From NCBI RefSeq assembly GCF_000210095.1, contig NC_021039.1, positions 1,702,107 to 1,766,106 of the forward strand: a DNA stretch of 64,000 nt, given 5' to 3'. Every line of letters starts with the position of its first letter. Positions within the stretch are counted from its first letter, which is position 1. Position numbers and translations under genes: made by a program. The notes beneath the pieces are model-generated. The model was not told the DNA's origin, did not search any database, and worked only from the letters and a program-made list of their open reading frames with translations. The stretch comes from Ruminococcus champanellensis 18P13 = JCM 17042. GTDB taxonomy: Bacteria; Bacillota; Clostridia; Oscillospirales; Ruminococcaceae. Shown here piece after piece: positions 2,432 to 27,096 of the stretch.

Positions 2432-4051
2432 ATGCATGCGGAAACGGTATTGAAGCTTACCATGCAGGATACTTTGCAGCAGGCGGCACAGAACCGGGAC
2501 GCCTGGATCCGGGCATACCGGGAGATCGTCAGTGAGCATCCCGCTGCAGAGGATCTGGCAGAGCAGCTGATCGATCGGGTACAACGGGCGTATGCCGTGC
2601 TGGAGGAACGGGAGACGCTTCGTTCTGACGGTTCCCTCTGTCAGGATCCGGCGTATATGGAGGAGTTTATCCGGCAGGAGGAACAGCAGGAGGCTGCTCT
2701 GGATGGGACGTTCCCTTTGGGCAGGGAGGAGGACGCTGCCTTTGCGCTGCCTTATTTTCCGATTCCGGATCTGGCAAGGATCCAGCTGGGCTTTGCTGCT
2801 CAGGTGCATACGGGAACGTACTCGGAATATGCACAGGACGTGCTGGTGCGCAAGGGCATTCTTCTGGAGGTGCTGGGGCAGTGGAAGGAAGCGGAACGCT
2901 GTTATCAGGGGGTATCCACCAGCAGCGTCGTGCAGCAGCGGGAATTTGCATGCCGCACCAAAGCTCAGGAGCAGGGAGAAGCCCTGTACCAGAAGGGCAT
3001 GGCTTGCGTGGAGCAGCTGGACTGGGACGGTGCCTGGTATCCCTTCAGCCAGGCGGCTGATCTGGGGCATCGGGAGGCTCTGGCAGAGCTGGGCTTTATG
3101 ACCGTGTACGGTACCGGATGCGGAAGATGCATCGAGGAGGGACTTGACTATTTGCGGACTGCCGCCAAACAGGGCAGTGCCTATGCCTGCCAGGTTTTAT
3201 GGGAGCTGCACGATGAAGGACTCCGGGATGTGACCGGCGCAGAGGCGCAGGCATGGTGCCGGGCTGCGGCGGAGCAGGGAAATGCGAAAGCGCTGGCACG
3301 CCTGGAGGATGGATTCGATCTGCGGCCGGTCACGGAGATCCTGCGGGAGCGGATCGGACAAGGGGATGTGGATGCGCTGTGGTATCTGGCACAGGAACTG
3401 GGGGATACGCAGGAGGCTGCCGGATACATGCAGCAGGCGGCGGATGCAGGACAGGTGGATGCTCTTTTGTTTTATGCCGAGCTGTACGGAGATCCTGCAC
3501 AGCCGGAGCTTTATGATCCGGTCAAAGCGGATGCATGCTATCGACAGGCGGCAGAACAGGGCTGCGAGAAAGCGATCCTGACATTGGGAGACCGGGCGCT
3601 CCACCGGGAGGATCCTCCCTTCTGGAACCGGACGGAGGATCCGGCTGCTGTGCCGGAGGATCTGCGCCAACGGCACCGGACGCAGTTTGACTGGTATCTG
3701 AAGGCTGCCCAGGGCGGATGTGTTTCTGCCATGTCCCATGTTGCAGCTGCTTATCACTATGGTTATCCTGTGGAGCAGGATGACAGGCAGGCGTTTTTGT
3801 GGGCATCCCGCAGTGCAGACGCCGGCGACAGCTACGGCATGTATGCCTGTGGATATTTCTATGAACATGCTCTGGGATGTGAGCAGGACCTGTCTGCTGC
3901 ACTGCTGTTGTATACCCGTGCAGCAGAGGCAGGAGAGCTGGGTGCCATGTACAGATTGATCGACATATATGAAACCGGCAGGAAGGGGATTCCTGCTGAT
4001 CCGGCAAAGGCAAGCCGCTATCGGTTTGCAGCCGGGATGAACTGGGATTGA
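2432..4051 (+). CDS. SEL1-repeat protein, 539 aa
   Basis: AGGAGAAGG lies 11 bases before the ATG at 2432; a GTG at 2423 is too close to that site. The first 190 residues are helical and not clearly SEL1. From about residue 190 to the end there are roughly eight SEL1-like units (for example AAEQGNAKALARL, AADAGQVDALLFYAELYG, AAEAGELGAMYRLIDIYETG). SEL1 solenoids act as scaffolds or sensors. No signal peptide is seen, so it should be cytosolic. It shares the solenoid with the genes at 1710 and 5837 and is spaced within 10-15 bases of its neighbours, so it is probably part of one operon. Confidence 0.82.
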   Translation: MHAETVLKLTMQDTLQQAAQNRDAWIRAYREIVSEHPAAEDLAEQLIDRVQRAYAVLEERETLRSDGSLCQDPAYMEEFIRQEEQQEAALDGTFPLGREEDAAFALPYFPIPDLARIQLGFAAQVHTGTYSEYAQDVLVRKGILLEVLGQWKEAERCYQGVSTSSVVQQREFACRTKAQEQGEALYQKGMACVEQLDWDGAWYPFSQAADLGHREALAELGFMTVYGTGCGRCIEEGLDYLRTAAKQGSAYACQVLWELHDEGLRDVTGAEAQAWCRAAAEQGNAKALARLEDGFDLRPVTEILRERIGQGDVDALWYLAQELGDTQEAAGYMQQAADAGQVDALLFYAELYGDPAQPELYDPVKADACYRQAAEQGCEKAILTLGDRALHREDPPFWNRTEDPAAVPEDLRQRHRTQFDWYLKAAQGGCVSAMSHVAAAYHYGYPVEQDDRQAFLWASRSADAGDSYGMYACGYFYEHALGCEQDLSAALLLYTRAAEAGELGAMYRLIDIYETGRKGIPADPAKASRYRFAAGMNWD

Positions 4052-4062
4052 AAGGAAACAGC

Positions 4063-4839
4063 ATGAATCAGGAATTTGAGTTTGAGAATCGGACTGTATC
4101 CATGTATTTGCATCGATGGTTTGAAACACCGATTACGGATACAGCGAATGTTTACAATGTGTGCAGTGGCACTCGCCTGGAATGGCTGCTGACCAACGGG
4201 GATCAGCTGCGCAGCCGGCTTTTCACCATGCGGAGTCTTGCCCGGACGCCGGAGGAGCATGCTGCCCTTCAGGAAACGGAAAAACGTGCGACAAGCTGGA
4301 TCCGTTGGCTTCTGGAACAGAATCGGGAGAAGATCCGGCTGTATCAGCAGCAGGGGGTGAAGGATTCCCGGTTGTTTGTCATGCTGGATCCCCAGGGCAG
4401 TCCCCGGGATGCGGCGTTTGAGGGCTTTGCAGAGGATCTGTCCCCGGAAAACGGTAAGCCCGGCTGTGTGCCCCGGTATACGGATGGCTGTATGCCACGC
4501 TTCTGTTATGATTTTCAGGAGGCCTTGCAGGATCGCCCGTTGTTTGATGCATGGCTGCCGCCGGAGCTGCCGGATGGGGAACTGTTGGCGGCGGCAAAGC
4601 AGCTGCAAAGTCAGGGAAGACTTGGAGAAATCAAACAGGAGATCCATCGGCCAACGGATTACACCATGGAGGGCATGACCCGGGAGGAGCGGGATGCACA
4701 GGCGTGGCAAAACTGGGCGAACGAAAACAATATCCGGGAATATGTGTATATAGATCTGGACGAGTGTCTGAACAGCTTTATCCATGCACTGGAGCAGGAA
4801 ATAGCCTTTTATGAGTTGGTCAGTGCAGTGAAACTTTAG
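4063..4839 (+). CDS. Hypothetical protein, 258 aa
   Basis: The ATG at 4063 has GAAAGGAAA just upstream; a TTG at 4048 inside the previous gene is less likely. The protein is soluble and acidic-to-neutral. It has a Trp/Arg-rich helix around residues 80-100 (TSWIRWLLEQNREKIRLY) and a C-terminal acidic segment (YVYIDLDECLNSFIHALEQE). I recognise no domain. Its position between a SEL1 gene and a zinc-ribbon gene with short gaps argues that it is expressed with them. Confidence 0.68.
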   Translation: MNQEFEFENRTVSMYLHRWFETPITDTANVYNVCSGTRLEWLLTNGDQLRSRLFTMRSLARTPEEHAALQETEKRATSWIRWLLEQNREKIRLYQQQGVKDSRLFVMLDPQGSPRDAAFEGFAEDLSPENGKPGCVPRYTDGCMPRFCYDFQEALQDRPLFDAWLPPELPDGELLAAAKQLQSQGRLGEIKQEIHRPTDYTMEGMTREERDAQAWQNWANENNIREYVYIDLDECLNSFIHALEQEIAFYELVSAVKL

Positions 4840-4848
4840 GAGGATCCT

Positions 4849-5043
4849 ATGGAACCGATCAGATGTCCCAAATGCGGCAGCACGGATGTTACCTATATGA
4901 ATATGGACGGCCACGTTATGACCGATCAGTATGGCTATGACATCCTGCTGGACATTGCGCCGGATATGTGGCGGTGTGAACAATGCGGCGAACTGTTCTG
5001 GCAGGATGTATACGAGGAGGCACCCCATGATTCTGCTGATTGA
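4849..5043 (+). CDS. Small zinc-ribbon protein, 64 aa
   Basis: TAGGAGG precedes the ATG by 6 bases. Cysteines at 6 and 9 (CPKC) and at 43 and 46 (CEQC) form a rubredoxin-like zinc ribbon covering nearly the whole protein. The loop between the pairs is unusually rich in Met, Tyr and Asp (VTYMNMDGHVMTDQYGYD). Zinc ribbons this small usually bind nucleic acid or another protein. The gene overlaps the next one by 17 bases in another frame, which suggests translational coupling and that the two products act together. Confidence 0.72.
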   Translation: MEPIRCPKCGSTDVTYMNMDGHVMTDQYGYDILLDIAPDMWRCEQCGELFWQDVYEEAPHDSAD

Positions 5044-5722
5044 GTACGAGTTTTCCGGAGGCGGCTGCGATGCCTTTCTGGAGTATGAATACCATGTACA
5101 GAGCATCGACCGGGGCTGGTACAGTCTGCAAAGCCCGGAGAATCAGTGGGTGCATATCCGGATGCACTCCATGTCACAGGGACATGCAGATCTGGTATTA
5201 TACCATCAAAACAGCCGGATTTATGCCGGATCCATTTCTCAGGATGAAAAGCTCCTTGTGTATGTGACCGGCAGCATCAGCGTGAACATCAGTCTGTTTG
5301 AAGATGAAGGGGACGTGATGCGGTATCTGGAGCAGCTTGCCGGAGAAGGCAGGTATGGCAGTGTATACTGGTACGATTACGGCTGGGCACCGGTGCTGCG
5401 GCTGGAGGGGTTCGACGGATCGGATGAAGCCATTCCCTGTGTACCGGGGTTTATGCCCGGTCAGGTGACGGATCCCTACCGCTTTTTCGTGCAGGAAACA
5501 GGGCGTAGCTATGGGGATGTAAGGGTATTCCGGCACGGAGAATTGGTGCGGAGCATCCGGCTTTCGGAGGATACGTCCAGTATGGAACTTGGCGATGCGG
5601 ATGCAGCATACCGCATTTCCTTTTTCCCGAACCGCATGCAGCTGGAACAGGCATTGGAAGCCAGCCGCCCCGATGCACCGGAACTGCTGCTGGATCAAGA
5701 GGATCCCTTATTGGATTGGTAA
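5027..5722 (+). CDS. Hypothetical protein, 231 aa
   Basis: The ATG at 5027 lies inside the end of the zinc-ribbon gene and has ACGAGGAGG 7-12 bases upstream; the frame is open further back but without a comparable site. The product is rich in Tyr, Asp and Gly with alternating beta-like strands (ILLIEYEFSGGGCDAFLEYEY, SVYWYDYGWAPVLRL). It has no signal peptide or membrane segment. No family recognised. Its stop is at the edge of a perfect inverted-repeat element (5723-5804). Confidence 0.68.
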   Translation: MILLIEYEFSGGGCDAFLEYEYHVQSIDRGWYSLQSPENQWVHIRMHSMSQGHADLVLYHQNSRIYAGSISQDEKLLVYVTGSISVNISLFEDEGDVMRYLEQLAGEGRYGSVYWYDYGWAPVLRLEGFDGSDEAIPCVPGFMPGQVTDPYRFFVQETGRSYGDVRVFRHGELVRSIRLSEDTSSMELGDADAAYRISFFPNRMQLEQALEASRPDAPELLLDQEDPLLDW

Positions 5723-5804
5723 GACAACACCGCACAAAGACGCCTGGCGGCTTTGCACAGCATCTGCTGACACATCTACTGCACAATCTTTGTGCGGTGT
5801 TGTC
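5723..5804. repeat. Palindromic element, 82 bp, with perfect 17-bp terminal inverted repeats
   Basis: The left end GACAACACCGCACAAAG (5723-5739) is the exact reverse complement of the right end (5788-5804). The interior contains CAGCATCTGCTGAC, also found in the longer copies. The element starts directly after the stop codon at 5722 and ends 32 bases before the next start codon, so it sits inside an apparent operon. It could act as a non-autonomous mobile element, a transcript-processing hairpin or an attenuator. There is no long T tail after it (TCTAAAAA), so strong termination is not evident. Confidence 0.8.
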
Positions 5805-5836
5805 TAAAAACGGCTGTTTGGAAGAGGAGGGAGGCT

Positions 5837-6673
5837 ATGAGCCTGTTTTACAGCGATTGGTTTTACGAAAAGCTGCCCCTTGGGTATGATCCGGAAAAAG
5901 AGCCGGAAAGCCCGTCAGAGCAGCAAGCCATGGGTGCGATCCGCTTTGTGCTCCTTGGCACCTGCCAGATCTACTGGGAGGGACAGATGGAAAAGCTGCT
6001 TGCGGCAGCAAAGGGTGGCTATACCCCTGCCTGGAGCATGCTGGGGTGGTGCTATCATTACAAGCCTGACACTTATTTATGCAGCTCTGATTTTAGGCGC
6101 AGGGGCAGCAGCCTTCGCACCTACCGAGCGGCGGAGGCGTACTACAAAAAAGGCATGGCCGCAGGGGATCTGAATGCCCTGTATGGCTTTGGGATTCTGT
6201 CCCTGTTGGGCAGCTGGGGACTGGATTCCTTTCCGGGACTTCGCCCGGTCGAGGGGCTTGCGTCCCTGCTGTCCGCAGCAAGGCAGGGCATGCCCAAGGC
6301 GATGCTTGCTCTTGGACGCATGCTCCGCAATGACGTGTTCCGGGAGGAAAGAGACATTGCATTCCAGCTGAACGCTATTGCCCAGAACCGGATGCGGGAC
6401 AAGCGTGTTTTGCGGTACAATGAAGCCGGGGAACTGGTGTTTGATCCGGATGCGTTTCATATGATGCATTTTGCATGCATGCTGGATGAAGTCCTGGCAG
6501 ATTACTGGCTGGAGCAGGCACAGCTTTCTGCAAGCGGATGCCACAGATCGGCAGAGCCGGAGGAGATCACCCGGCGTATGCAGCTGGCACTGGAGAAATG
6601 CAGAACGTTTGAAGTCGGGTATCTTGCCCATTGGCAGCATGATATAGAGTTGGAGCAGCAAGCTTTAGAGTAG
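5837..6673 (+). CDS. SEL1-repeat protein, 278 aa
   Basis: GAAGAGGAGGGA lies directly before the ATG at 5837. SEL1-like units are visible at about residues 55-75 (KLLAAAKGGYTPAWSMLGWCY), 105-130 (AYYKKGMAAGDLNALYGFG) and 150-175 (LLSAARQGMPKAMLALGRML). The N-terminal 50 residues and C-terminal 80 residues are not repeats. It is soluble with no signal peptide. This is the third SEL1 protein in the island, separated from the others by the 82-bp palindrome. It probably works as a scaffold, but nothing in the sequence names a partner. Confidence 0.78.
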   Translation: MSLFYSDWFYEKLPLGYDPEKEPESPSEQQAMGAIRFVLLGTCQIYWEGQMEKLLAAAKGGYTPAWSMLGWCYHYKPDTYLCSSDFRRRGSSLRTYRAAEAYYKKGMAAGDLNALYGFGILSLLGSWGLDSFPGLRPVEGLASLLSAARQGMPKAMLALGRMLRNDVFREERDIAFQLNAIAQNRMRDKRVLRYNEAGELVFDPDAFHMMHFACMLDEVLADYWLEQAQLSASGCHRSAEPEEITRRMQLALEKCRTFEVGYLAHWQHDIELEQQALE

Positions 6674-8485: not shown

Positions 8486-8498
8486 AAGGAGAATACAT

Positions 8499-9812
8499 AT
8501 GGCAGAATATTATCCCGCAGGGTATCAGATCCCCCTGGTCAACGGGTCGGATGCCGTCATCGTCAAGAAGCCGGGCGAAGGCGGACAGGGTGTGGTATAC
8601 CGTGTGTCCGTGGGGGGCAGGGAGTATGCCCTCAAGTGGTACCATAAGGGTGCAGTGCATAACCCCAAGAAATTCTATCAGAACCTGGAATCCAACATCA
8701 GCAAGGGCGCGCCCACCAAGGCGTTTCTGTGACCCTTGTATCTGACCAAGCCGGTGGACGGAAGCTTTGGCTATGTGATGGATCTGCGGCCGCAGAATTT
8801 CCGGGAGTTTTCGGACTTCCTGCTGGCAAAGGTACATTTTCAGTCCCTGTCCGCAGCAGTGAATGCGGCGCTGAATATCACCAACGGGTTCCGGGAGCTG
8901 CACCGGAACGGCTTTTCCTATCAGGATCTGAATGACGGTAACTTCTTTATCGATCCCGCCACCGGAGAGGTGCTTATCTGTGACAACGATAACGTTGCCC
9001 CCTATGGGGAAAGCCTCGGCATCGCCGGAAAGGCACGGTATATGGCGCCGGAGGTGGTGCGCAATATGACCGCCCCCAATGTGATGACGGATCGGTTTTC
9101 CCTGGCAGTGGTGCTGTTCCGTCTGCTGTTCCTGGATCATCCCCTGGAGGGCAAGCGTGTGGTGGAGGCTCCCTGTCTGACGGAGGAGCTGGAACTGAAA
9201 TTCTACGGCAAGGATCCGGTGTTTATGTTCGACCCTGGGGATGACAGAAACCGTCCTGTCCGGGGCGTGCATGCCAATGCCATTCGCTTCTGGCCCATGT
9301 ATCCGAAATTCATCCAGAACAAATTCATTGAAGCACTTTCCAAGGACGCCATGACCGGCAATGCACCCCGTATGACCGACAATGACTGGCAGATCGCCTT
9401 TACCCGGCTCCGGGATACCATCATCACCTGTCCATGCGGCAGTGAAACCTTTATCAACGTGGCCGGGGATGCCAATTGCTGCGGCTGTGGACAGAAGATC
9501 CCGAAGCCGCCGGTGCTGAACTGTCACAATCACAAATACGGACTGGCACTGTTTCCCGGCATGAAGCTGTACCGTTGTCACATCGACAAGGGCAGCGACA
9601 ATTTTACAGAGGTGATCGGCGAGGTGAGCCGGAACCCGAAAAATCCTGGTGTGTGGGGCTTGCGGAATGTCAGCGATGTGGTCTGGAATGTGGAGACCCA
9701 GGACGGCGGGATCCGACCGGTGGAAAAGGGGCAGGTTGCGCCCATTGCAGCCATCCGGGCGATCCACTTCCCCAACGGGGACGCAGTGGTGGAACTGAGT
9801 AGGGAGTGTTGA
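8499..9812 (+). pseudogene. Ser/Thr protein kinase with C-terminal zinc ribbon, interrupted by an in-frame TGA
   Basis: GAAAGGAGA precedes the ATG at 8499. The frame reads a glycine loop (GEGGQGVVYRV), the ATP Lys in YALKWY (K46), then TGA at codon 78 (8730-8732), and continues without frame change. After it come the catalytic loop YQDLNDGN (D143, N148) and the metal site CDNDN (D162). Near residues 310-335 is a C-G-C...C-C-G-C zinc ribbon, then a beta-rich tail. All kinase residues are intact, so a single TGG-to-TGA change at an expected Trp (FL-stop-PLYL) explains the break. The last two codons and the stop lie in the palindromic element at 9806. With the vWA and PP2C genes it forms a YegI/L/K-like (TerY-P) triad. 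Recoding or a sequencing error are alternatives. Confidence 0.82.
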
Positions 9813-9959
9813 CACTAAGATAATATACAGATTTTCGAGCATAAATTTTACGTAGACAAGGCAAAAAGTCGCAGGCAGGCTGTCGCCTGTCAAGACTTTT
9901 TAACGCAGGATGCGTGAAATTTTGCCGAAAAGATGCGTTGTTAGACTTAGTGTCAACAC
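9806..9959. mobile_element. MITE-like palindromic element, 154 bp, with 14-bp terminal inverted repeats
   Basis: GTGTTGACACTAAG at 9806-9819 is exactly inverted at 9946-9959. The interior is itself an imperfect palindrome: GCAAAAAGTC on the left mirrors GACTTTTTAACG on the right, and AAATTTTACG mirrors CGTGAAATTTTG. The whole element could therefore fold as one long hairpin. It has no coding capacity. It overlaps the end of the kinase gene and supplies its stop codon. I see no convincing target-site duplication. The ends differ from the GGCAACACC family, so this is a second repeat family. Confidence 0.82.
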
Positions 9960-9971
9960 GACCTAAATAAA

Positions 9972-10005: not shown

Positions 10006-10026
10006 AAGAATATGGAGGACATGACA

Positions 10027-10800
10027 ATGGCAGATTTTTATGGAGGGGCAGTGGAAGTTGCCCGGAGAACCATGACGCTCTTTTTCCTGGTGGATACATC
10101 CGGCAGTATGGACGGCTCCAAGATCGGTACCCTGAATTCCGCAGTGGAGGAGGTTATCCCGGAGATCCGGAAACTGTCCGGTGAAAATGCGGATGCAGCC
10201 ATCAAGATCGCTGTACTGGAGTTTTCCAGCGGTGCCCGGTGGATCACCTCTGCGCCCATGGATGCAAATGACTTCCGGTGGAATTATCTGAATGCGGACG
10301 GGCTGACGGATTTCGGGGAAATGTGCAAAATGCTCAACGAAAAACTGTCCCGGAGTGCGTTCATGAGTGATGTAGCAGGCTCCTTTGCGCCGGCAATTTT
10401 CCTGCTGTCCGATGGTGAACCAACGGACGACTACCAGAAGGAATTGGGGAAGCTGAAGGAAAACAACTGGTTCAAGAAAGCGATCAAGGTGGCGATTGCC
10501 ATCGGGGATGATGCCAACAAGGATGTGCTGGCTGAATTTACCGGAAACAAAGAAGCAGTGATTACAGTTCATACCCCGGAGGCACTGACGAAAATGATCC
10601 GGTTCGTTTCCGTGACCGCATCTCAGATCGGCTCCAAATCCAGCGGCGTAGGCAAGGGCGGCGTGGATCAGGCACCCAGCAAGCAGGGGGCTGCCATTGA
10701 AGCCATTGGCGCTGCGGTACAGGGCGGTGACATGGGGGCTGGCGTCACCATGGTGAACACGCCTCCCGACAGTGAGGATCCGGAAGCATGGGATTGGTAA
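10027..10800 (+). CDS. von Willebrand factor A domain protein (TerY/YegL-like)
   Basis: GGAGG at 10014-10018 is 8 bases before the ATG at 10027; ATGs at 10012 and 10021 are too early for it. A MIDAS metal site is clear: DTSGSM gives D23, S25 and S27, with further Thr and Asp motifs at LTDFG and LSDGEPTDD. The vWA fold covers about residues 15-205; the tail is Gly/Ser-rich and low complexity. TerY/YegL-type vWA proteins are cytosolic and occur with a kinase and a PP2C phosphatase in stress-linked triads. Its end overlaps the phosphatase start by 13 bases, which supports coupled synthesis. Confidence 0.88.
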   Translation: MADFYGGAVEVARRTMTLFFLVDTSGSMDGSKIGTLNSAVEEVIPEIRKLSGENADAAIKIAVLEFSSGARWITSAPMDANDFRWNYLNADGLTDFGEMCKMLNEKLSRSAFMSDVAGSFAPAIFLLSDGEPTDDYQKELGKLKENNWFKKAIKVAIAIGDDANKDVLAEFTGNKEAVITVHTPEALTKMIRFVSVTASQIGSKSSGVGKGGVDQAPSKQGAAIEAIGAAVQGGDMGAGVTMVNTPPDSEDPEAWDW

Positions 10801-12035
10801 ATGACGTATACAGCTGCTTTCACTGTACCAGCATCGGTGCGTCCCATATCAGAAAGGGCACGGTGTGCCAGGATCATTCCGCAAGCCTGGAAACGGATCG
10901 GTATGTGCTGACAGTGGTGTCGGACGGCCACGGCGGGGCGGATTATTTCCGCTCTGATCGGGGCAGTCGGTTTGCAGCGGAAGCCTTTTGCAGCTGTGTG
11001 GCGGATGCTCTGGATCTGCCGGAGGAAGCTCCGGAACCTGCCCATGGCTTTTTGCAGAACCGGGCAAGAAACTTCGCTGATGCGCTGCTTGCATGCAGAA
11101 CGGAAAAGCAGACCGAGGAGCAGATGCGCTGGTTCATCCGGAGTCTGGTGACCCGCTGGAATATGCTGATTGATGCGGACCTGGAAGCGGATCCCTTCCG
11201 GGAGGAGGACCTGGCGGAGGTATCCGAAAAAGCAAAGCTCCGGTATCTGGCAGGGGAACGGGTGCAGGCTGCCTATGGAGCAACCCTGATCGGTGCGGTG
11301 GTAACGGAGGATTTCTGGTTCGGCGTTCAGATCGGAGACGGAAAATGCGTAGCATTTGACCATGCTGGAACGGATACGGAGCCGATCCCCTGGGATGAAC
11401 AATGCTTTCTCAATCTGACCACTTCCCTTTGCGACTCCGATGCGGCAGGAGAATTTCGCTTCTGCTTCAGTCGGGAATTGCCGGCAGCCGTGTTTGTAGG
11501 CAGCGACGGCATTGACGGCAGCTTCAAAAACCAGCGGCATCTGCATAACTTTTACCGGGTTGTGCTGACCTCCTTTGCCCAGGAGGATGCACAGCAGGCA
11601 GCAGAGGAACTGGAGGCATACCTGCCCCAGCTTTCCGCCCAGGGCAGTGCGGACGATGTGTCCGTGGGCTGTATCCTCAACCTGGGGCATATCCGGTCGA
11701 ATGACGGGCTTTATGCCAAGCGGAAGGAGCCGTATCTGAAGATCTTCCGGGTAGGGAATCTGGGGGCGGAGCATGCGTCCGATGTGTATGCCCAGACCGG
11801 GGAGATTGAGGCATCGGAAGGGATTGTGGGTCTGGATGTGCTGGGCTGTGACGGTTTTCGTCAAGGAGTCATGGAGTTTCAGATCCTGTCCGTGACAGAG
11901 AATGGTGCATTGGTTTCTGTGGGAGGAACAGAGTATGCAGTTACGTCGTTGGAACGGGCGGAGATTCAGGAAAGCCGGACAGTGGATGGGGCGTGTCAGT
12001 ACGATACCCTGATCCTGCAATGCGTGTTGAAATAA
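10788..12035 (+). CDS. PP2C-family protein phosphatase
   Basis: The N-terminal 300 residues carry PP2C metal-binding motifs: SDGHGGAD (D46, G47), GSDGIDG and SADDVSVG. The sequence HIRKGTVCQDH at the start is the usual PP2C opening in this triad type. It should remove phosphate from targets of the neighbouring kinase. About 110 residues after the phosphatase domain (starting RKEPYLKIFRVG) form an extra beta-rich domain that I do not recognise. The ATG overlaps the vWA gene by 13 bases and the stop is 3 bases before the next start, so the order vWA-phosphatase-transglutaminase is tightly coupled. Confidence 0.88.
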   Translation: MGLVNDVYSCFHCTSIGASHIRKGTVCQDHSASLETDRYVLTVVSDGHGGADYFRSDRGSRFAAEAFCSCVADALDLPEEAPEPAHGFLQNRARNFADALLACRTEKQTEEQMRWFIRSLVTRWNMLIDADLEADPFREEDLAEVSEKAKLRYLAGERVQAAYGATLIGAVVTEDFWFGVQIGDGKCVAFDHAGTDTEPIPWDEQCFLNLTTSLCDSDAAGEFRFCFSRELPAAVFVGSDGIDGSFKNQRHLHNFYRVVLTSFAQEDAQQAAEELEAYLPQLSAQGSADDVSVGCILNLGHIRSNDGLYAKRKEPYLKIFRVGNLGAEHASDVYAQTGEIEASEGIVGLDVLGCDGFRQGVMEFQILSVTENGALVSVGGTEYAVTSLERAEIQESRTVDGACQYDTLILQCVLK

Positions 12036-12038
12036 TCT

Positions 12039-12980
12039 ATGGAACATCAGGGCGCCAGGTATTACTATTCCCGGCTCACTGACCGGGAGAAGTCCGCTTA
12101 TGATGCACTTTGCAAAGGGCTTGACTGCTTTGCCTCCTCTGTATCCCTTGGCCGTATCAGTCCAACCCGGATGCAATCCATTGTGGAGAGTGTGGTGTAC
12201 GACAATCCGGGATATTTTTATTTTGACCAGCGGCGCATTGCTGCGATGCAGACTCTGTCCGGGATCACAGTGAAGCCGGAGTACTGCAATACCCCCGGTG
12301 AAGTCCGTCTGCTGTGGAAACAGATACAGGCGCAGCTGGATGCTTTCATGCATACCCGGATCCGTCCAGGCATGCCGCCCCTTGCCCGGCAGATTGAAGC
12401 CCACCGGTGGATGCAGCAGCATATCCGCATTGCTGACGGGGCTGACACCAGGGAGCAGCACTCCGTTGTGGGGGCGCTGGTGCAGGGCAGCTGTGTCTGT
12501 GAGGGCTTTGCCCATGCATACAAGCTGCTGTGTGACCGGCTGCATCTGGCATCCATCCTTGTGACCGGAACAGCCCGGCGGCCGGACGGAGTTGTGGAGC
12601 CCCACGCTTGGAATATTACCCGGCTGGAGGGGAGCACCGCCCATATCGATGTAACATGGGATACGGCTTTAGGATCCGGAGCCTATGATTATTTCAATCT
12701 GACCGATGCGGAGATCCGGGCGGATCACTGCTTTGACGGGGGTCTGTATCCCCCATGCACAGAAAAGCGCTTTGATTACTTTACCAGCAATCGGCTGGTG
12801 GCAAAGGATCCTGCCCAGCTGGGTCGGCTGATCGCTGCACAAGCTCATAAAGCATGCTTCTCTGTGAAGCTGGCGTTTCCCTGGGATGCCTCCCTTCTGG
12901 ACACATGCGGCTTTCCTGTCGGCAGGATCCGATATAACCAGGCACAGAATGTTTTGTTTTTTCAGACAGATACCCCATAA
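12039..12980 (+). CDS. Transglutaminase-like (papain-fold) protein, 313 aa
   Basis: The catalytic triad of transglutaminase-like proteins is visible: C154 in CVCEGFAHAYKLL, H189 in PHAWNI and D204 in HIDVTWD. The first 130 residues are helical. No signal peptide is present, so this is a cytosolic version, unlike the secreted transglutaminase-like proteins common in Firmicutes. The start is 3 bases after the phosphatase stop with no ribosome-binding site of its own, which implies translational coupling. Members may be proteases or amide-modifying enzymes. Coupling to a kinase/vWA/phosphatase triad suggests it acts on, or is controlled by, the same targets. Confidence 0.82.
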   Translation: MEHQGARYYYSRLTDREKSAYDALCKGLDCFASSVSLGRISPTRMQSIVESVVYDNPGYFYFDQRRIAAMQTLSGITVKPEYCNTPGEVRLLWKQIQAQLDAFMHTRIRPGMPPLARQIEAHRWMQQHIRIADGADTREQHSVVGALVQGSCVCEGFAHAYKLLCDRLHLASILVTGTARRPDGVVEPHAWNITRLEGSTAHIDVTWDTALGSGAYDYFNLTDAEIRADHCFDGGLYPPCTEKRFDYFTSNRLVAKDPAQLGRLIAAQAHKACFSVKLAFPWDASLLDTCGFPVGRIRYNQAQNVLFFQTDTP

Positions 12981-13056: not shown

Positions 13057-13118
13057 GTACATATCAACAGAGATGCTTCCATGGAGATTTTGTACATATG
13101 CACAAGGAGGGATGTTTT

Positions 13119-15401
13119 ATGCATCAAACAACAAGAAAAATTCTGGCATGCTTTCTGGCAGTGGGCACACTTTGCGTGTCTTTGCCCGGTATGCGGACAG
13201 AAGCAGCAGCGGAAATGTGGCTGGACGGAGAGGAGGATGGTTTCTACTATTCTATCCAACTGAATTATAATTATGCTGTAATTACCGGCTGTGACCCAAG
13301 TAAGACCGGCGTGGTGAAGGTTCCGGATACGGTAGGAGCAACGCCAGTAAAGGTCATCGGGGGCGGTGCATTCAGCGGCTGCGGCCATACGGACGAGGAA
13401 CTGGAAGAAATGGGTGCAGAGCACAGCGCAAGCGGCTGCGGCATTACGGAGTTGATCCTGCCGGACAGTGTGACCACCATTGAACAGGCAGCATTCCGGA
13501 ACTGCGAGGATCTGAAAGCCATTCACTTCCCGGCCGGGCTGGAGAGCTTCAATGGGAAAGATTCTAAAATATACTCCAATGACTTGGAGAGCGGCTGCTT
13601 TGGCTATGCCTCCTGGACGGAGGGCTGCACCAAGCTGGAGAAGCTGACCATCAGCAAGAGCAATCCCTATTTTAAGTCTGTTGGCGGCATAATCTACAGC
13701 AAAGACGGCTCTGCGATAGGGCCGGTGCCCTATGGGATTTCCTTTGACTCTGTGAATCTTTCCGGCGTTACCAAGATCGGGGACTATGCTTTCTGCGGAC
13801 ATTCCGAGATCACGGAGCTGAACCTGCCTTCTCACATCACCGCTGTGGGGGATCACGCCTTTCAGGACTGCAAAAATCTGCAAACAGCATATGTACCTGA
13901 AGCAGTGCGCACAATTGGAGATTATGCCTTTGCAGGTTGTAGTTTGAATATGTCCGATGAGAACATGCCGGAGTATTACAGTATCAGCATCCTGCTGTCA
14001 GAGGGGCTGGAGTCCGTAGGGGACTATGCCTTTTCCAGAATGTATGGGTTAACCTATCTGAATCTGCCCCAGTCCCTGACGACCTTGGGAAAGGGTACGT
14101 TTGCAGGTGACAATCGGCTTCTTTCTATGCGTATTCCTGCAAAGGTGACGGTGATTCCGGACAATTTGTTTGAGCGTTGCTATGAATTGCAGGGAGTTTC
14201 CCTGCCGGATGGTTTGCAGGAGATCGGTGCGTATGCTTTTTATGGTCCCATGAAGCTGAAAACGGTACACCTGCCGGAAGGGTTGAAGTCCATCGGAAAT
14301 TATGCATTTGCCTGCTTCCACCAGCTAAGCCCCTGGTCGGAGGAAACCGGACTGCTGTATATGACCATTCCGGATTCTGTGGAGTATATCGGTGCCAATG
14401 CCTTTGCACTGAACAGCAACCTGACCGGGGTAAAGCTGCCGGAAAATCCGGCAGGCACTGTAATGGGAGAGCGTGCCTTTGAAGGATGCTCCTCAATGGA
14501 GCGGGTACATATTCCGGGCAGTATTCATCAGATCCCATCCTATGCGTTTTCCGGCAGCAGTTGGATCACAGTTGACGAGGGGGTCACGGAAATCGGCGAC
14601 AACGCATTTCGTGGATTACTGAATCTGAAAAGCCTGACTTTGCCGGAGAGCCTGAAAACCATTGGAGCATGCGCATTTGCGGAAATAGGCAGCCATGCCT
14701 TCTTCTGGAACGGCAGCGAGTATGTGGATTGCGGCATTCGTTCCCTCACAGTGCCGGATGGGGTGACAGACATCGGGTACGGTGCCTTTGCCGGCAGTAA
14801 CCTGCGGGATATTCTGCTGTCAGATTCCCTTCGTGCAGTGGGTTTCCGGGCATTTGATAATGCTAAGCTGGAAGTACTGGAGTATCCGGAAGGGATCACG
14901 GAGCTAAATGAATGGTACACCATGGGCTGTGAAAATCTGAATGCCATTTATCTGCCGGATACGCTGGAATCCATTGAGCCGCTTGCCATTGCAAAAAATG
15001 CGGATCTGTCACAAATCGTATTCCACGATGATCGGTTCACCACGGATCTTTCTGATTGGTCGGTCAGCAATCTGGAGATGGTGCCGGATGTATACTTTGC
15101 CGGCACGGAGCAGGAGTGGAAGGCATTGACGAAAAACTGGGACTTTTCAGAATACGATACGGATCCCTCCGTTATGGACAAAGTAACGGTGCATTTCAAT
15201 GCCAAGCGGCAGAGCAGCCTGTTAGGGGATGTGAATGCGGACGGGCAGTTTACAGTGGCAGACATGGTGCTGCTGCAAAAGTGGCTGATCGGCAAGGGGA
15301 TCCTGCATAGTCCGGACAACGGAGATATGAATGGGGATGGTATCCTGAACAGCTGGGATCTGGTGCGGATGCGCCGGGCATTGCTGGAGGTACAGGAATA
15401 A
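13119..15401 (+). CDS. Secreted BspA-type leucine-rich-repeat protein with dockerin
   Basis: CAAGGAGGG precedes the ATG at 13119. A signal peptide (KILACFLAVGTLCVSL, then an Ala-rich cleavage zone) leads into more than a dozen BspA/LRR_5 units of the form IGDYAF-x-x-C-x-x-L followed by LPEGLxSIG. From about residue 700 is a type I dockerin with two Ca loops, DVNADGQFTVAD and DMNGDGILNSWD. LRR_5 domains bind proteins or surfaces; a dockerin would plug the protein into a cellulosome. No catalytic domain is present, so a binding or adhesion role is inferred. The last 520 bases are nearly identical to the next gene, showing duplication or gene conversion. Confidence 0.88.
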   Translation: MHQTTRKILACFLAVGTLCVSLPGMRTEAAAEMWLDGEEDGFYYSIQLNYNYAVITGCDPSKTGVVKVPDTVGATPVKVIGGGAFSGCGHTDEELEEMGAEHSASGCGITELILPDSVTTIEQAAFRNCEDLKAIHFPAGLESFNGKDSKIYSNDLESGCFGYASWTEGCTKLEKLTISKSNPYFKSVGGIIYSKDGSAIGPVPYGISFDSVNLSGVTKIGDYAFCGHSEITELNLPSHITAVGDHAFQDCKNLQTAYVPEAVRTIGDYAFAGCSLNMSDENMPEYYSISILLSEGLESVGDYAFSRMYGLTYLNLPQSLTTLGKGTFAGDNRLLSMRIPAKVTVIPDNLFERCYELQGVSLPDGLQEIGAYAFYGPMKLKTVHLPEGLKSIGNYAFACFHQLSPWSEETGLLYMTIPDSVEYIGANAFALNSNLTGVKLPENPAGTVMGERAFEGCSSMERVHIPGSIHQIPSYAFSGSSWITVDEGVTEIGDNAFRGLLNLKSLTLPESLKTIGACAFAEIGSHAFFWNGSEYVDCGIRSLTVPDGVTDIGYGAFAGSNLRDILLSDSLRAVGFRAFDNAKLEVLEYPEGITELNEWYTMGCENLNAIYLPDTLESIEPLAIAKNADLSQIVFHDDRFTTDLSDWSVSNLEMVPDVYFAGTEQEWKALTKNWDFSEYDTDPSVMDKVTVHFNAKRQSSLLGDVNADGQFTVADMVLLQKWLIGKGILHSPDNGDMNGDGILNSWDLVRMRRALLEVQE

Positions 15402-15418: not shown

Positions 15419-17467
15419 ATGAAAAGATTGGGTAGGAAATTAACCGCAGTGCTGTTGTCCTGCGGCATGGTTCTGACAGCTCTGCCAACAATCGTCTTGG
15501 CGGAAACAGCGGAGCCTTATGTGATGGAAATGGTGGACGGCGTTCGCTACCGATATTATCTCAACGGAGGATATTGCGCAGTGGACAGTCTGGTGGACAA
15601 TACAGTGACCGGCACACTGAAACTGGCAGGAGAAGTGCTGGGGCATCCTGTAACGGGCATTGAGGCAAACGCTCTGAAATATTGTGAGATGACATCGCTG
15701 ATTCTGCCGGACAGCATCACATGGATTGGCGACAGTGCATTTGGGTATTGCGAAAACCTGGAACACATCCAGCTTTCTGCAGGGCTGACAAGCCTTTCCG
15801 GGGTGGAAACAGAGCATTATGTATCCGGCTATGGTTCCTGGGTGTATGGGTGTGATAATTTGAAAACGCTGACTGTCAGCAGTGCTAGCAAAACCTTTCA
15901 GTCTGTAAACGGCATTTTATACAGTAAGGACGGAAAAACCCTTTTTGCAGTGCCAAAGGCTGTGCCCTACGATACAGTGGATCTGAGCGCTGTGACCCGG
16001 ATCGGGGAGTATGCCTTTTACGATCACCAGGAGATCACCAGCTTTTCCGTGCCGGAAGGGATCAAGTCCATCGGTGCTTATGCCTTTGGGAAAACCAGTA
16101 TGATGCAGGAGATTTCTTTGCCGGATTCCTTATCAGAGCTTGGAGAAGGTGCATTTATGGAATCTGGATTAAGGTATCTTCAGATTCCGGATGGTGTTTC
16201 CTGCATTCCGGAGAATTTTTGCTATGCAGTTCCATTGAGGGAAATTGTATTACCCGAAAGTGTAGTGTCTATTGGGGAACAGGCGTTTTACAATGCAATT
16301 TGGTATATGGAAACGTTAGAATTGCCGGAAGGATTGGAAACCATCGGGGACTATGCCTTTGCCACAAGTTATCCGATTATTCCCGGGTACCGTCGTGAGA
16401 CAGATCCCCATGGACTGTTGCAGGTTTCTATTCCAGACTCGGTATCTTCTATCGGGAACTATGCCTTTTTGGGAAACCGAAACCTGACGGAGCTTCGGCT
16501 CCCGGCATCCGATACGGAAATATGCAGCCATGCCTTTGAGGATTGCGGCATCCTTGCTCTTACGCTGCCGGAACACACAAAGCGAATTGCGGACTATACA
16601 TTTTATGGTTGTCGGATGCGAAATCTGGTCATACCGGAGGGTGTTACGGAGATAGCATGTGAAGCGTTTAGTCACTGTACCGCTTTGCGGCAGGTTGTGC
16701 TGCCCTCCACGCTGCAGAAGATCGGTATGCTTGCCTTTGAAAATGCAGGCCGTACCAATGGTTTTGGGGAATACACCTATACCGGAATTACCTCTATTGT
16801 TGTCCCGGATGGAGTTACGGAAATTGATTATGGTGCATTTACGGGTAGTAATTTGCTGGATGTGCAGTTGCCGGATACTCTGAAAACACTGGGTTTCCGG
16901 GCCTTTGACAATACCAATCTGGCAGTACTGGAGTATCCGGAAGGGATCACGGAGCTGAATGAATGGTACACCATGGGCTGTGAAAATCTGAATGCCGTTT
17001 ATCTGCCGGATACGCTGGAATCCATTGAGCCTCTTGCCATTGCCAAGAATGCGGATCTGTCATTTATTGTATTGCACGAGGATCGAGTGGATACTGACCC
17101 GGAGGATTACAGTGTCAGCAATCTGGAGCTTGTGCCGGATGTATACTTCGCCGGCACGGAGCAGGAGTGGAAGGCATTGACGAAAAACTGGGACTTTTCC
17201 GAGTACAACACGGATCCCTCCGTTATGGACAAAGTAACGGTGCATTTCAATGCCAAGCGGCAGAGCAGCCTGTTAGGGGATGTGAATGCGGACGGGCAGT
17301 TTACAGTGGCAGACATGGTGCTGCTGCAAAAGTGGCTGATCGGCAAGGGGATCCTGCATAGTCCGGACAACGGAGATATGAATGGGGATGGCATCCTGAA
17401 CAGCTGGGATCTGGTGCGGATGCGCCGGGCATTGCTGGAGGTGCAGGAACAGGAAGCTCTGGGATGA
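15419..17467 (+). CDS. Secreted BspA-type leucine-rich-repeat protein with dockerin, second copy
   Basis: GAGGAGG lies 7 bases before the ATG. It has a signal peptide (LTAVLLSCGMVLTALPTIVLA), about a dozen LRR_5 units, and a type I dockerin from about residue 618 with the same two loops as the preceding protein. It is 78 residues shorter than its neighbour because it has fewer repeats. The N-terminal two thirds are clearly diverged from the first copy, whereas the region from the LEYPEGITELNEWYTMG block to the end is nearly unchanged. The 17-base gap suggests cotranscription. The dockerin places it among cellulosome components; its ligand is unknown. Confidence 0.88.
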   Translation: MKRLGRKLTAVLLSCGMVLTALPTIVLAETAEPYVMEMVDGVRYRYYLNGGYCAVDSLVDNTVTGTLKLAGEVLGHPVTGIEANALKYCEMTSLILPDSITWIGDSAFGYCENLEHIQLSAGLTSLSGVETEHYVSGYGSWVYGCDNLKTLTVSSASKTFQSVNGILYSKDGKTLFAVPKAVPYDTVDLSAVTRIGEYAFYDHQEITSFSVPEGIKSIGAYAFGKTSMMQEISLPDSLSELGEGAFMESGLRYLQIPDGVSCIPENFCYAVPLREIVLPESVVSIGEQAFYNAIWYMETLELPEGLETIGDYAFATSYPIIPGYRRETDPHGLLQVSIPDSVSSIGNYAFLGNRNLTELRLPASDTEICSHAFEDCGILALTLPEHTKRIADYTFYGCRMRNLVIPEGVTEIACEAFSHCTALRQVVLPSTLQKIGMLAFENAGRTNGFGEYTYTGITSIVVPDGVTEIDYGAFTGSNLLDVQLPDTLKTLGFRAFDNTNLAVLEYPEGITELNEWYTMGCENLNAVYLPDTLESIEPLAIAKNADLSFIVLHEDRVDTDPEDYSVSNLELVPDVYFAGTEQEWKALTKNWDFSEYNTDPSVMDKVTVHFNAKRQSSLLGDVNADGQFTVADMVLLQKWLIGKGILHSPDNGDMNGDGILNSWDLVRMRRALLEVQEQEALG

Positions 17468-25242: not shown

Positions 25243-27096
25243 ATGTCTGAGAACAGATTGTGCTATGGATGCATGGAAGTGAAAGGAGAACAGGTTGTCT
25301 GCCCCCACTGCGGCTATCAGGACGGCACACCGTATCTGCCGGATTACATTGCGCCTGGCACCATGCTGCGGGAGCGTTATCTGATCGGCGTACTGCTGGG
25401 GCATAACGGAGAGGGCGCTACCTATCTGGCTTACGATACCGTCATCTGCTGCAAGGTTCTGATTCGTGAATATATGCCCATCGGGCTTTGTACCCGGATC
25501 AAGGGCAAGCCGATCATCAGTGTGAATTATAATAACCTTGCCCAGTACAAGGCGCTGATGGCGGAGTATACGGAGTTGAACAAGACCCTTGCCCGTATGC
25601 GCAATCTGAGTCATATCAATCCCACTCTGGATCTGTTTGCAGAGAATAATACCACCTACACCGTGTTTGAATACACGGAGGGTGTGAAGCTGCTGGATTT
25701 CCTCAAGGACAATGCAGGAGAGCTGAGCTGGAATCAGGCGAAAAAAATGTTCCCGCCTCTGTTCACCACCCTGAGCCTGGTACATAACGCAGGCATTGTG
25801 CATCGGGGCATCAGTCCGGAAACCATTTATGTCACTGAGAAAGGCAATCTGCAGCTTTCTGCGTTCTGTATCTCCTCTGTGCGCACCGCCAATACCGAGT
25901 TGAAGACGGAGCTGTTTCCGGGCTATGCGGCACCGGAGCAGTACAGTGCCAGCGGCAGGCAGGGGACATGGACGGATGTATACGGCATCTGTGCGGTGCT
26001 GTACCGGATCCTGACCGGCTGCATGCCTACGGAGGCTCCCAGTCGGCTGGACAATGACAATCTTTGCGCTCCCCATGAGCTGAGCGGCAGCATTCCGGTG
26101 CATGTGTCCAGAGCCATTATGGATGGTCTGGCGCTGAACAGTGATGAGCGTACCCAGACCATTACCGAGCTTGTGACCCGGCTGTTTGAGGAGACGGAGG
26201 AGGAAACTGCCCAGCGTACCGCCGTGACACCGCCTCCCGTTCCCAAATATGAGCCGCAGCCGGAGCCGGAATATGAGGACGAAGAAGTATACGAAGACTA
26301 TGAGGATTACGAGGATCTGAAGGATGGCAAATCTGCGGTCAGCGCCTTTGATAAGGTGAAGGTACCTATGATCATCGGGATTCTGCTGATTACAGTGATT
26401 CTGATTGTTGCCCTGGTACTGGCAAAGGTGTTCCGGGACAGTGATTCCCAGGTGATTTCCCAGAACAGCAGCACAAGCAGTTCTCTGAGTGATATTGTCA
26501 CCGTTACCACAGAGGCTGTGACTGCCACCAAGGAGTATGACTCTGTGATGATCAATGTAGTGGGTATGGATTACAAGGCAAAGAAGGCAGATTTGGCAGA
26601 GTGGATCGAGCTGAACTGCATTGCGGAGGAGTACAGCGATGAGTATCCGGCAGGGCAGATCATCTGGCAGTCCGTAAAGGAAGGGGAGGACTTCAAGAGC
26701 GGCGATACCCTGGACGTAAAGGTAAGTCTTGGGCCGTCCAAGGTGAAGGTGCCGGAGTTCAAGGGCGTTACCCTTTCCGCCTACATTGCGGAGATCGAAA
26801 AGATCGGTATCAAGAATCATACCTCCACACCGGCTGTCAACTACAATTACGCCACCGGCGCAGTGATCAAGACCAGTGTAGAACCTGGTGAAACCATTGA
26901 CCTGACCACGGATTACAAGTTTGTGATTACCTATGCGGACAATCCGGCAGTGACCACTACAGCGCCGCCGGCTGCTACCACTGCACCGACAGCGGAAACC
27001 ACCGTTGCACCGCCGCCTGCGTCCCAGCCCGCACAACCCGGCAGCAATCCGGGAGATGGGGGACAGGATTTGCCCGGCATTGAAGAGGCGGATTGA
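25243..27096 (+). CDS. Membrane pseudokinase with zinc ribbon and two PASTA domains
   Basis: The protein runs: zinc ribbon (C7, C10, C20, C23), kinase-like domain (about 42-325), acidic Tyr-rich linker, one membrane helix (about 373-395), two PASTA domains (about 434-500 and 502-565), and a Thr/Pro-rich tail. PASTA kinases sense cell-wall fragments and control growth. Here the kinase motifs are degraded: HRD reads H187-R-G189, the Asn of the catalytic loop is T194, and DFG reads A207-F-C. The glycine loop (GHNGEGA) remains. It should therefore be catalytically dead or very weak and act as a wall-binding scaffold. AAAGGAGAA precedes the ATG. Confidence 0.88.
   Translation: MSENRLCYGCMEVKGEQVVCPHCGYQDGTPYLPDYIAPGTMLRERYLIGVLLGHNGEGATYLAYDTVICCKVLIREYMPIGLCTRIKGKPIISVNYNNLAQYKALMAEYTELNKTLARMRNLSHINPTLDLFAENNTTYTVFEYTEGVKLLDFLKDNAGELSWNQAKKMFPPLFTTLSLVHNAGIVHRGISPETIYVTEKGNLQLSAFCISSVRTANTELKTELFPGYAAPEQYSASGRQGTWTDVYGICAVLYRILTGCMPTEAPSRLDNDNLCAPHELSGSIPVHVSRAIMDGLALNSDERTQTITELVTRLFEETEEETAQRTAVTPPPVPKYEPQPEPEYEDEEVYEDYEDYEDLKDGKSAVSAFDKVKVPMIIGILLITVILIVALVLAKVFRDSDSQVISQNSSTSSSLSDIVTVTTEAVTATKEYDSVMINVVGMDYKAKKADLAEWIELNCIAEEYSDEYPAGQIIWQSVKEGEDFKSGDTLDVKVSLGPSKVKVPEFKGVTLSAYIAEIEKIGIKNHTSTPAVNYNYATGAVIKTSVEPGETIDLTTDYKFVITYADNPAVTTTAPPAATTAPTAETTVAPPPASQPAQPGSNPGDGGQDLPGIEEAD

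Follow-up and report, generated by a model that had tools for sequence, protein, structure and literature searches.

A protein kinase gene of Ruminococcus champanellensis 18P13 is interrupted by an in-frame TGA, probably through a recent nonsense change of a tryptophan codon that affects, in this lineage or strain, the kinase of a three-gene set of the TerY-phosphorylation (TerY-P) type. The gene lies on the forward strand of the stretch of DNA analysed (64,000 nucleotides, here called the window, whose positions are used throughout), occupies positions 8499-9812 (437 codons) and carries the TGA at 8730-8732, as codon 78, in frame with the ATG at 8499. According to the explanation we favour, a tryptophan codon in an accessory kinase gene has recently become TGA, and little or no active kinase would be produced, because translation would end after 77 codons, with strand 4, the hinge and the entire catalytic lobe still untranslated. 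The genes for a vWA-domain protein and a PP2C phosphatase would remain open, without their cognate kinase, behind the hairpin of a MITE-like element.

The part of the gene up to and including the TGA (8499-8732, forward strand) is preceded by a GGAG-type ribosome-binding site at approximately 8486-8490, and its 77 codons encode the glycine loop GEGGQG, K46 and helix C. The TGA lies in the loop that joins helix C (residues 56-69) to the strand at 81-83, in the context FL-stop-PLYL, and is followed by a C. The part 3' of the TGA (8733-9812, forward strand; 359 codons and the stop) encodes the remaining kinase domain, a zinc ribbon predicted from the CxC...CxxC motif at residues 311-330 (9429-9488, forward strand; C311, C313, C327, and C330), of which C311 and C313 are invariant and C330 is nearly invariant in the alignment of homologues, and a beta-rich C-terminal domain (residues ~339-432 of an AlphaFold2 model). 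When read through the TGA, the gene encodes a zinc-ribbon Ser/Thr kinase, with a match to PF00069 (E 5.9e-14, residues 23-219), while the product as coded does not qualify as one. The model of the read-through kinase, built from a 60-sequence alignment, has a mean pLDDT of 92.3, and a Foldseek search with it returned kinases only among the matches listed. An alignment spanning the stop shows 84% identity to the kinase of locus L014 over 435 residues, and the proportion of nonsynonymous differences from it (pN) is 0.100 before the stop and 0.097 after. The identity to L014, the equal pN across the stop and the pLDDT of 92.3 argue that the homology on either side of the TGA is not due to chance. 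Thus the TGA and the homologous reading that continues beyond it, both reported in the initial annotation, are confirmed, as is the retention of the ATP lysine, the catalytic Asp and the metal Asp, these residues (K46, D143, and D162/D164) being present here and invariant in the 60-sequence alignment.

As to the residue expected at codon 78, tryptophan (codon TGG) is found in all 78 homologous stretches that cover the site, which come from 77 loci (this first set comprised 87 loci, the window's own copies were left out, and five further aligned pieces do not extend to codon 78). A second set, from further genomes of the family, has tryptophan in 24 of 27 cases, methionine in three and an internal stop in none. 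The three methionine cases (L167, L174, and L176) all belong to genus g119. Across these alignments tryptophan is the rule at this position but not an absolute one, since methionine replaces it in three of the 27 second-set loci. The tryptophan anticipated by the initial annotation, which had called for an alignment of orthologues, is thus the residue found, and a natural break at codon 78 in orthologues, named there as grounds for abandoning its reading, is rejected, none having been seen among the homologues of either set. The stops in L017, L179, L183, and L186 were considered as internal breaks and rejected, as they are the natural 3' ends of the respective kinases. In the family as a whole the kinase gene is accessory, detected (E<=1e-40) in 30 of 247 genomes, that of the window included, and its best open frame measures at least 426 amino acids in all of the 29 other genomes that have it, versus 359 here. 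The gene thus presents an in-frame stop in a conserved frame whose homologues are intact. The genome collections compared hold one genome per species, and no near-identical copy from another strain was found among viral contigs, or among plasmids by megablast.

Constraint is retained elsewhere in the gene. Among up to 76 other loci, 83 alignment columns reach a conservation of at least 95%, and the window keeps 82 of them, the sole departure being codon 78 (the count at this column is 74 of 75, as the X in the query let a gap slip in L085, placing its tryptophan two columns off; L013, left out of the conserved-column count, shows the same slip). Synonymous differences from L014 are saturated (pS 0.82 before the stop and 0.84 after), and pN is higher before the stop than after it in comparisons with L015 (0.185 versus 0.143) and L016 (0.289 versus 0.189). 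In relative-rate counts, window-specific to L014-specific changes number 10:2 (outgroup L015), 5:2 (L016), and 3:3 (L022) before the stop, and 18:20, 20:11, and 9:9, with the same respective outgroups, after it; in the neighbouring genes, with L016 as the outgroup, they number 6:12 for vWA and 15:18 for PP2C. These mixed counts, which weigh somewhat against the favoured explanation, suggest no consistent acceleration after the stop, the L016 comparison leaning toward one. As the 82 conserved columns show no loss and the frame has no other stop, the time since any loss of constraint is bounded at approximately 0.014 neutral substitutions per site under a simple neutral model (kappa 2, indels ignored). 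The kinase being otherwise undecayed, the change is explained by a very recent origin, by an error in base calling or by tolerance owing to readthrough, and the undecayed state of the part 3' of the stop, while in accord with a recent loss, is also what maintained function would produce. Of the recent TGG-to-TGA change put forward in the initial annotation, the tryptophan-to-stop replacement in an otherwise intact kinase stands, and so does its recency (0 of 82 losses, no further stop), whereas a real mutation is not separable on these data from a base-call error, which fits the sequence equally well.

Such a base-call or assembly error, with the strain keeping its tryptophan codon and an intact kinase, is in our judgment rather unlikely, though it is to be taken seriously. 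A stop that is the only departure at the 83 conserved columns is what one wrong base would give. The assembly may also contain gaps, as suggested by the missing tRNA genes for Ala and Ile and by the N runs present in 10 of the 20 stretches (20 kb each) that were sampled, although such runs may be of another nature. Direct evidence for an error is nil, however: the window itself contains no N, and homopolymer errors do not take the form of a G-to-A change. A search of the genome for 16S rRNA genes found none, and as the same search missed them in five of 14 control genomes, this absence says little on assembly quality. If the living strain does carry this TGA, which we hold to be the more natural reading, the kinase activity and the function of the triad would be lost.

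Another possibility is that the stop is read through, a near-cognate tRNA-Trp misreading UGA-C so that some full-length kinase is made and the downstream part stays under selection; this appears quite improbable. The constraint 3' of the stop would agree with it, and tRNA-Trp misreads UGA in both Escherichia coli and Bacillus subtilis, according to passages of PMC5289835, where a C at position +4 is described as raising readthrough in yeast. On the other hand, in E. coli it is +4A, not C, that favours such misreading, according to the same passages, and C is the base least often following TGA (13 of 71) in a 464-kb sample of the genome. TGA appears to be a working stop codon here, since it terminates 71 of 174 long frames in the sample (frames picked by length only, with antisense ones possibly included). 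No stop occurs at codon 78 in the other kinases examined. Dedicated means of recoding were also sought. A suppressor tRNA is rejected, as none of the 42 tRNA genes found in the genome, all with their anticodons read, has the anticodon UCA. An altered tRNA-Trp is likewise rejected: the UGA-reading variants described in part of PMC13092985 are A9C, G24A, and a 4-bp anticodon stem, and the single tRNA-Trp of this genome has A9, G24, and a 5-bp stem (five pairs, read by eye). Selenocysteine at the TGA is rejected on a genome search that yielded no match for SelA. Thus, SelA, a UCA-anticodon tRNA and an altered tRNA-Trp were not found in the assembly. Its tRNA list contains neither Ala nor Ile and is therefore incomplete, some genes being absent either from the assembly or from the search output, so that a suppressor could hide among the genes missed. 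Two genes of the RF-1 family are present, not told apart as RF1 and RF2. Background misreading at the TGA is possible, and the site bears no mark of programming. The readthrough or suppressor mechanism that the initial annotation offered as a means of regulating the amount of kinase has, accordingly, gained no support from an ordinary tRNA-Trp, a tRNA list (without Ala and Ile) free of UCA, and the absence of SelA. A variant of this idea, in which UGA-C serves as a lineage-specific dosage valve, slight misreading yielding a little full-length kinase, sufficient for the part 3' of the stop to be preserved by selection, beside an excess of the vWA and PP2C proteins and thus a high-threshold stress or defence switch, strikes us as a long shot.

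When the 464 kb were scanned with a codon model for genes interrupted by a single stop, 26 candidates emerged, three of them with TGA, codon 78 among them; a long opposite-strand frame crosses the stop in 24 of the 26, codon 78 included, and as homology was examined for codon 78 only, the scan is no evidence for or against further genes of this kind.

The scenario to which we give the least credence is that of a split kinase, with ribosomes restarting past the stop (at TTG 8736 or GTG/ATG 8775/8778) to give two halves that would assemble. In-frame start codons do occur 6, 24, 45, and 48 bases 3' of the TGA, yet a scan for short ribosome-binding motifs gave no match at any of the four. The break would fall within the N-lobe, a place where none of the homologues examined is split, the change of frame in L061 being near residues 290-326 instead. 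In that locus, from a metagenome-assembled genome, a homologous kinase is encoded at 4791-5913 in two overlapping pieces in different frames, with residues ~291-326 missing, which may reflect a deletion, a frameshift or an assembly error.

The kinase, vWA, and PP2C genes are adjacent and co-oriented. The vWA-domain (TerY-like) gene (10012-10800, forward strand, starting at ATG 10012 or 10018) is assigned through PF00092 (E 5.1e-08), not through a TerY-specific model, and its product contains the motif DTSGS, which we take to be the metal site. The end of this gene is overlapped by the PP2C phosphatase gene (10788-12035, forward strand; PF13672, E 1.6e-32), which is followed by a transglutaminase-like gene (12039-12980, forward strand; PF01841, E 2.7e-05), a possible fourth member that adjoins the triad in one of 77 other loci (L016). 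Both partners are present in 64 of 77 kinase loci within the stretch fetched, some of these stretches ending at a contig edge. The protein encoded at 698-1357 of the window is 49% identical to the product of L014 positions 3172-3831, approximately 0.9 kb upstream of the L014 kinase, and thus the cluster shares more than the triad with that locus. No protein of the triad was named by NCBIfam or PADLOC above a curated cut-off. Further downstream, the neighbouring proteins encoded at 13098-15401 and 15419-17467, presumably leucine-rich-repeat-like with dockerin-like C-terminal ends (judging from motifs), have nearly identical C termini.

A second lesion in the operon, absent from the initial annotation, is a MITE-like inverted-repeat element of 162 bp between the kinase and vWA genes (9802-9963), with TA on both sides (9800-9801 and 9964-9965). 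The stop of the kinase gene and the three codons ahead of it (REC) come from this element: the protein now ends in ELSREC and would end in ELSK if the element and one TA were removed, the kinase of L014 ending in EYSK. At the same boundary L014, L015, and L016 have approximately 12-25 bases and no such element. Related DNA occurs at four other places in the genome (the six rows of the search are the window's own plus the others, with two adjacent pieces counted as one), and only the window copy has TA on both sides, the others having it on one side at most. The sequence 9800-9965 folds to -77.9 kcal/mol (z -11.8), so that a strong hairpin now stands ahead of the vWA gene. A promoter/terminator scan gave four terminator-like sites versus 1.6 expected, a weak signal, with one of the four in the element. 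The vWA protein and the phosphatase may act without their kinase, as the initial annotation proposed; their frames are open, but the hairpin lies ahead of them and the genome has three other Pkinase-domain genes. These three emerged from a Pkinase search of the genome (2.57 Mb, one contig) that found the domain in four places, the one here spanning "1 TGA." A second kinase gene of the window, with PASTA repeats (25243-27096), has a Pkinase match that starts at profile position 51, leaving the N-lobe unmatched, and may encode a divergent N-lobe or a pseudokinase.

Overall, the case is most likely one of recent breakage or of a sequencing error, and not of a new way of reading genes; as an ordinary case it leaves ideas on the genetic code or gene regulation unchanged. 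If real, the lesion has left a TerY-P-type triad naturally devoid of its kinase while both partner genes are still open, which would be useful for questions on what vWA and PP2C proteins do alone. It is also a warning that the annotation of a TerY-P triad in a genome is no proof that the triad works.

Three-gene sets of the TerY-P kind have been connected, in other settings, with the response to stress and with defence against viruses. On the evidence of gene content and order, the layout here is of this type: the TerY-P triad (Anantharaman et al., 2012), in the parts of PMC11090510 and PMC4978471 that describe it, consists of a vWA protein, a PP2C phosphatase and a zinc-ribbon Ser/Thr kinase, and adjacent genes here likewise encode a vWA protein, a PP2C phosphatase and a kinase with a C-terminal zinc ribbon. 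The difference is that the kinase gene is interrupted and a MITE-like element separates it from the vWA gene. Partner restriction genes are described for other TerY-P loci, and in a Prevotella plasmid relative the same three genes lie beside a gene annotated as "TerY-C metal binding domain." The stand-alone antiphage TerY-P system (Gao et al., 2020) has the same three enzyme classes and acts against T7-like phages, according to a portion of PMC7699616, but its kinase has an OB-fold replacing the zinc ribbon, according to a portion of PMC11090510; in the present kinase a zinc ribbon is followed by the beta-rich domain. In a PADLOC search neither the vWA nor the PP2C protein had a match, and the kinase had weak ones (best E 2.9e-11), all to other systems (PD-T4-6, mad6, and others) and not to the Gao-type model; as the triad is not recognised, a defence role here is a lead and not a result. 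Finally, the gene resembles single-nonsense pseudogenes, being an accessory gene that a lone in-frame stop interrupts while its homologues are intact, and differs from them in that its coding region shows no other clear decay; the lesion, if real, would therefore be very young.
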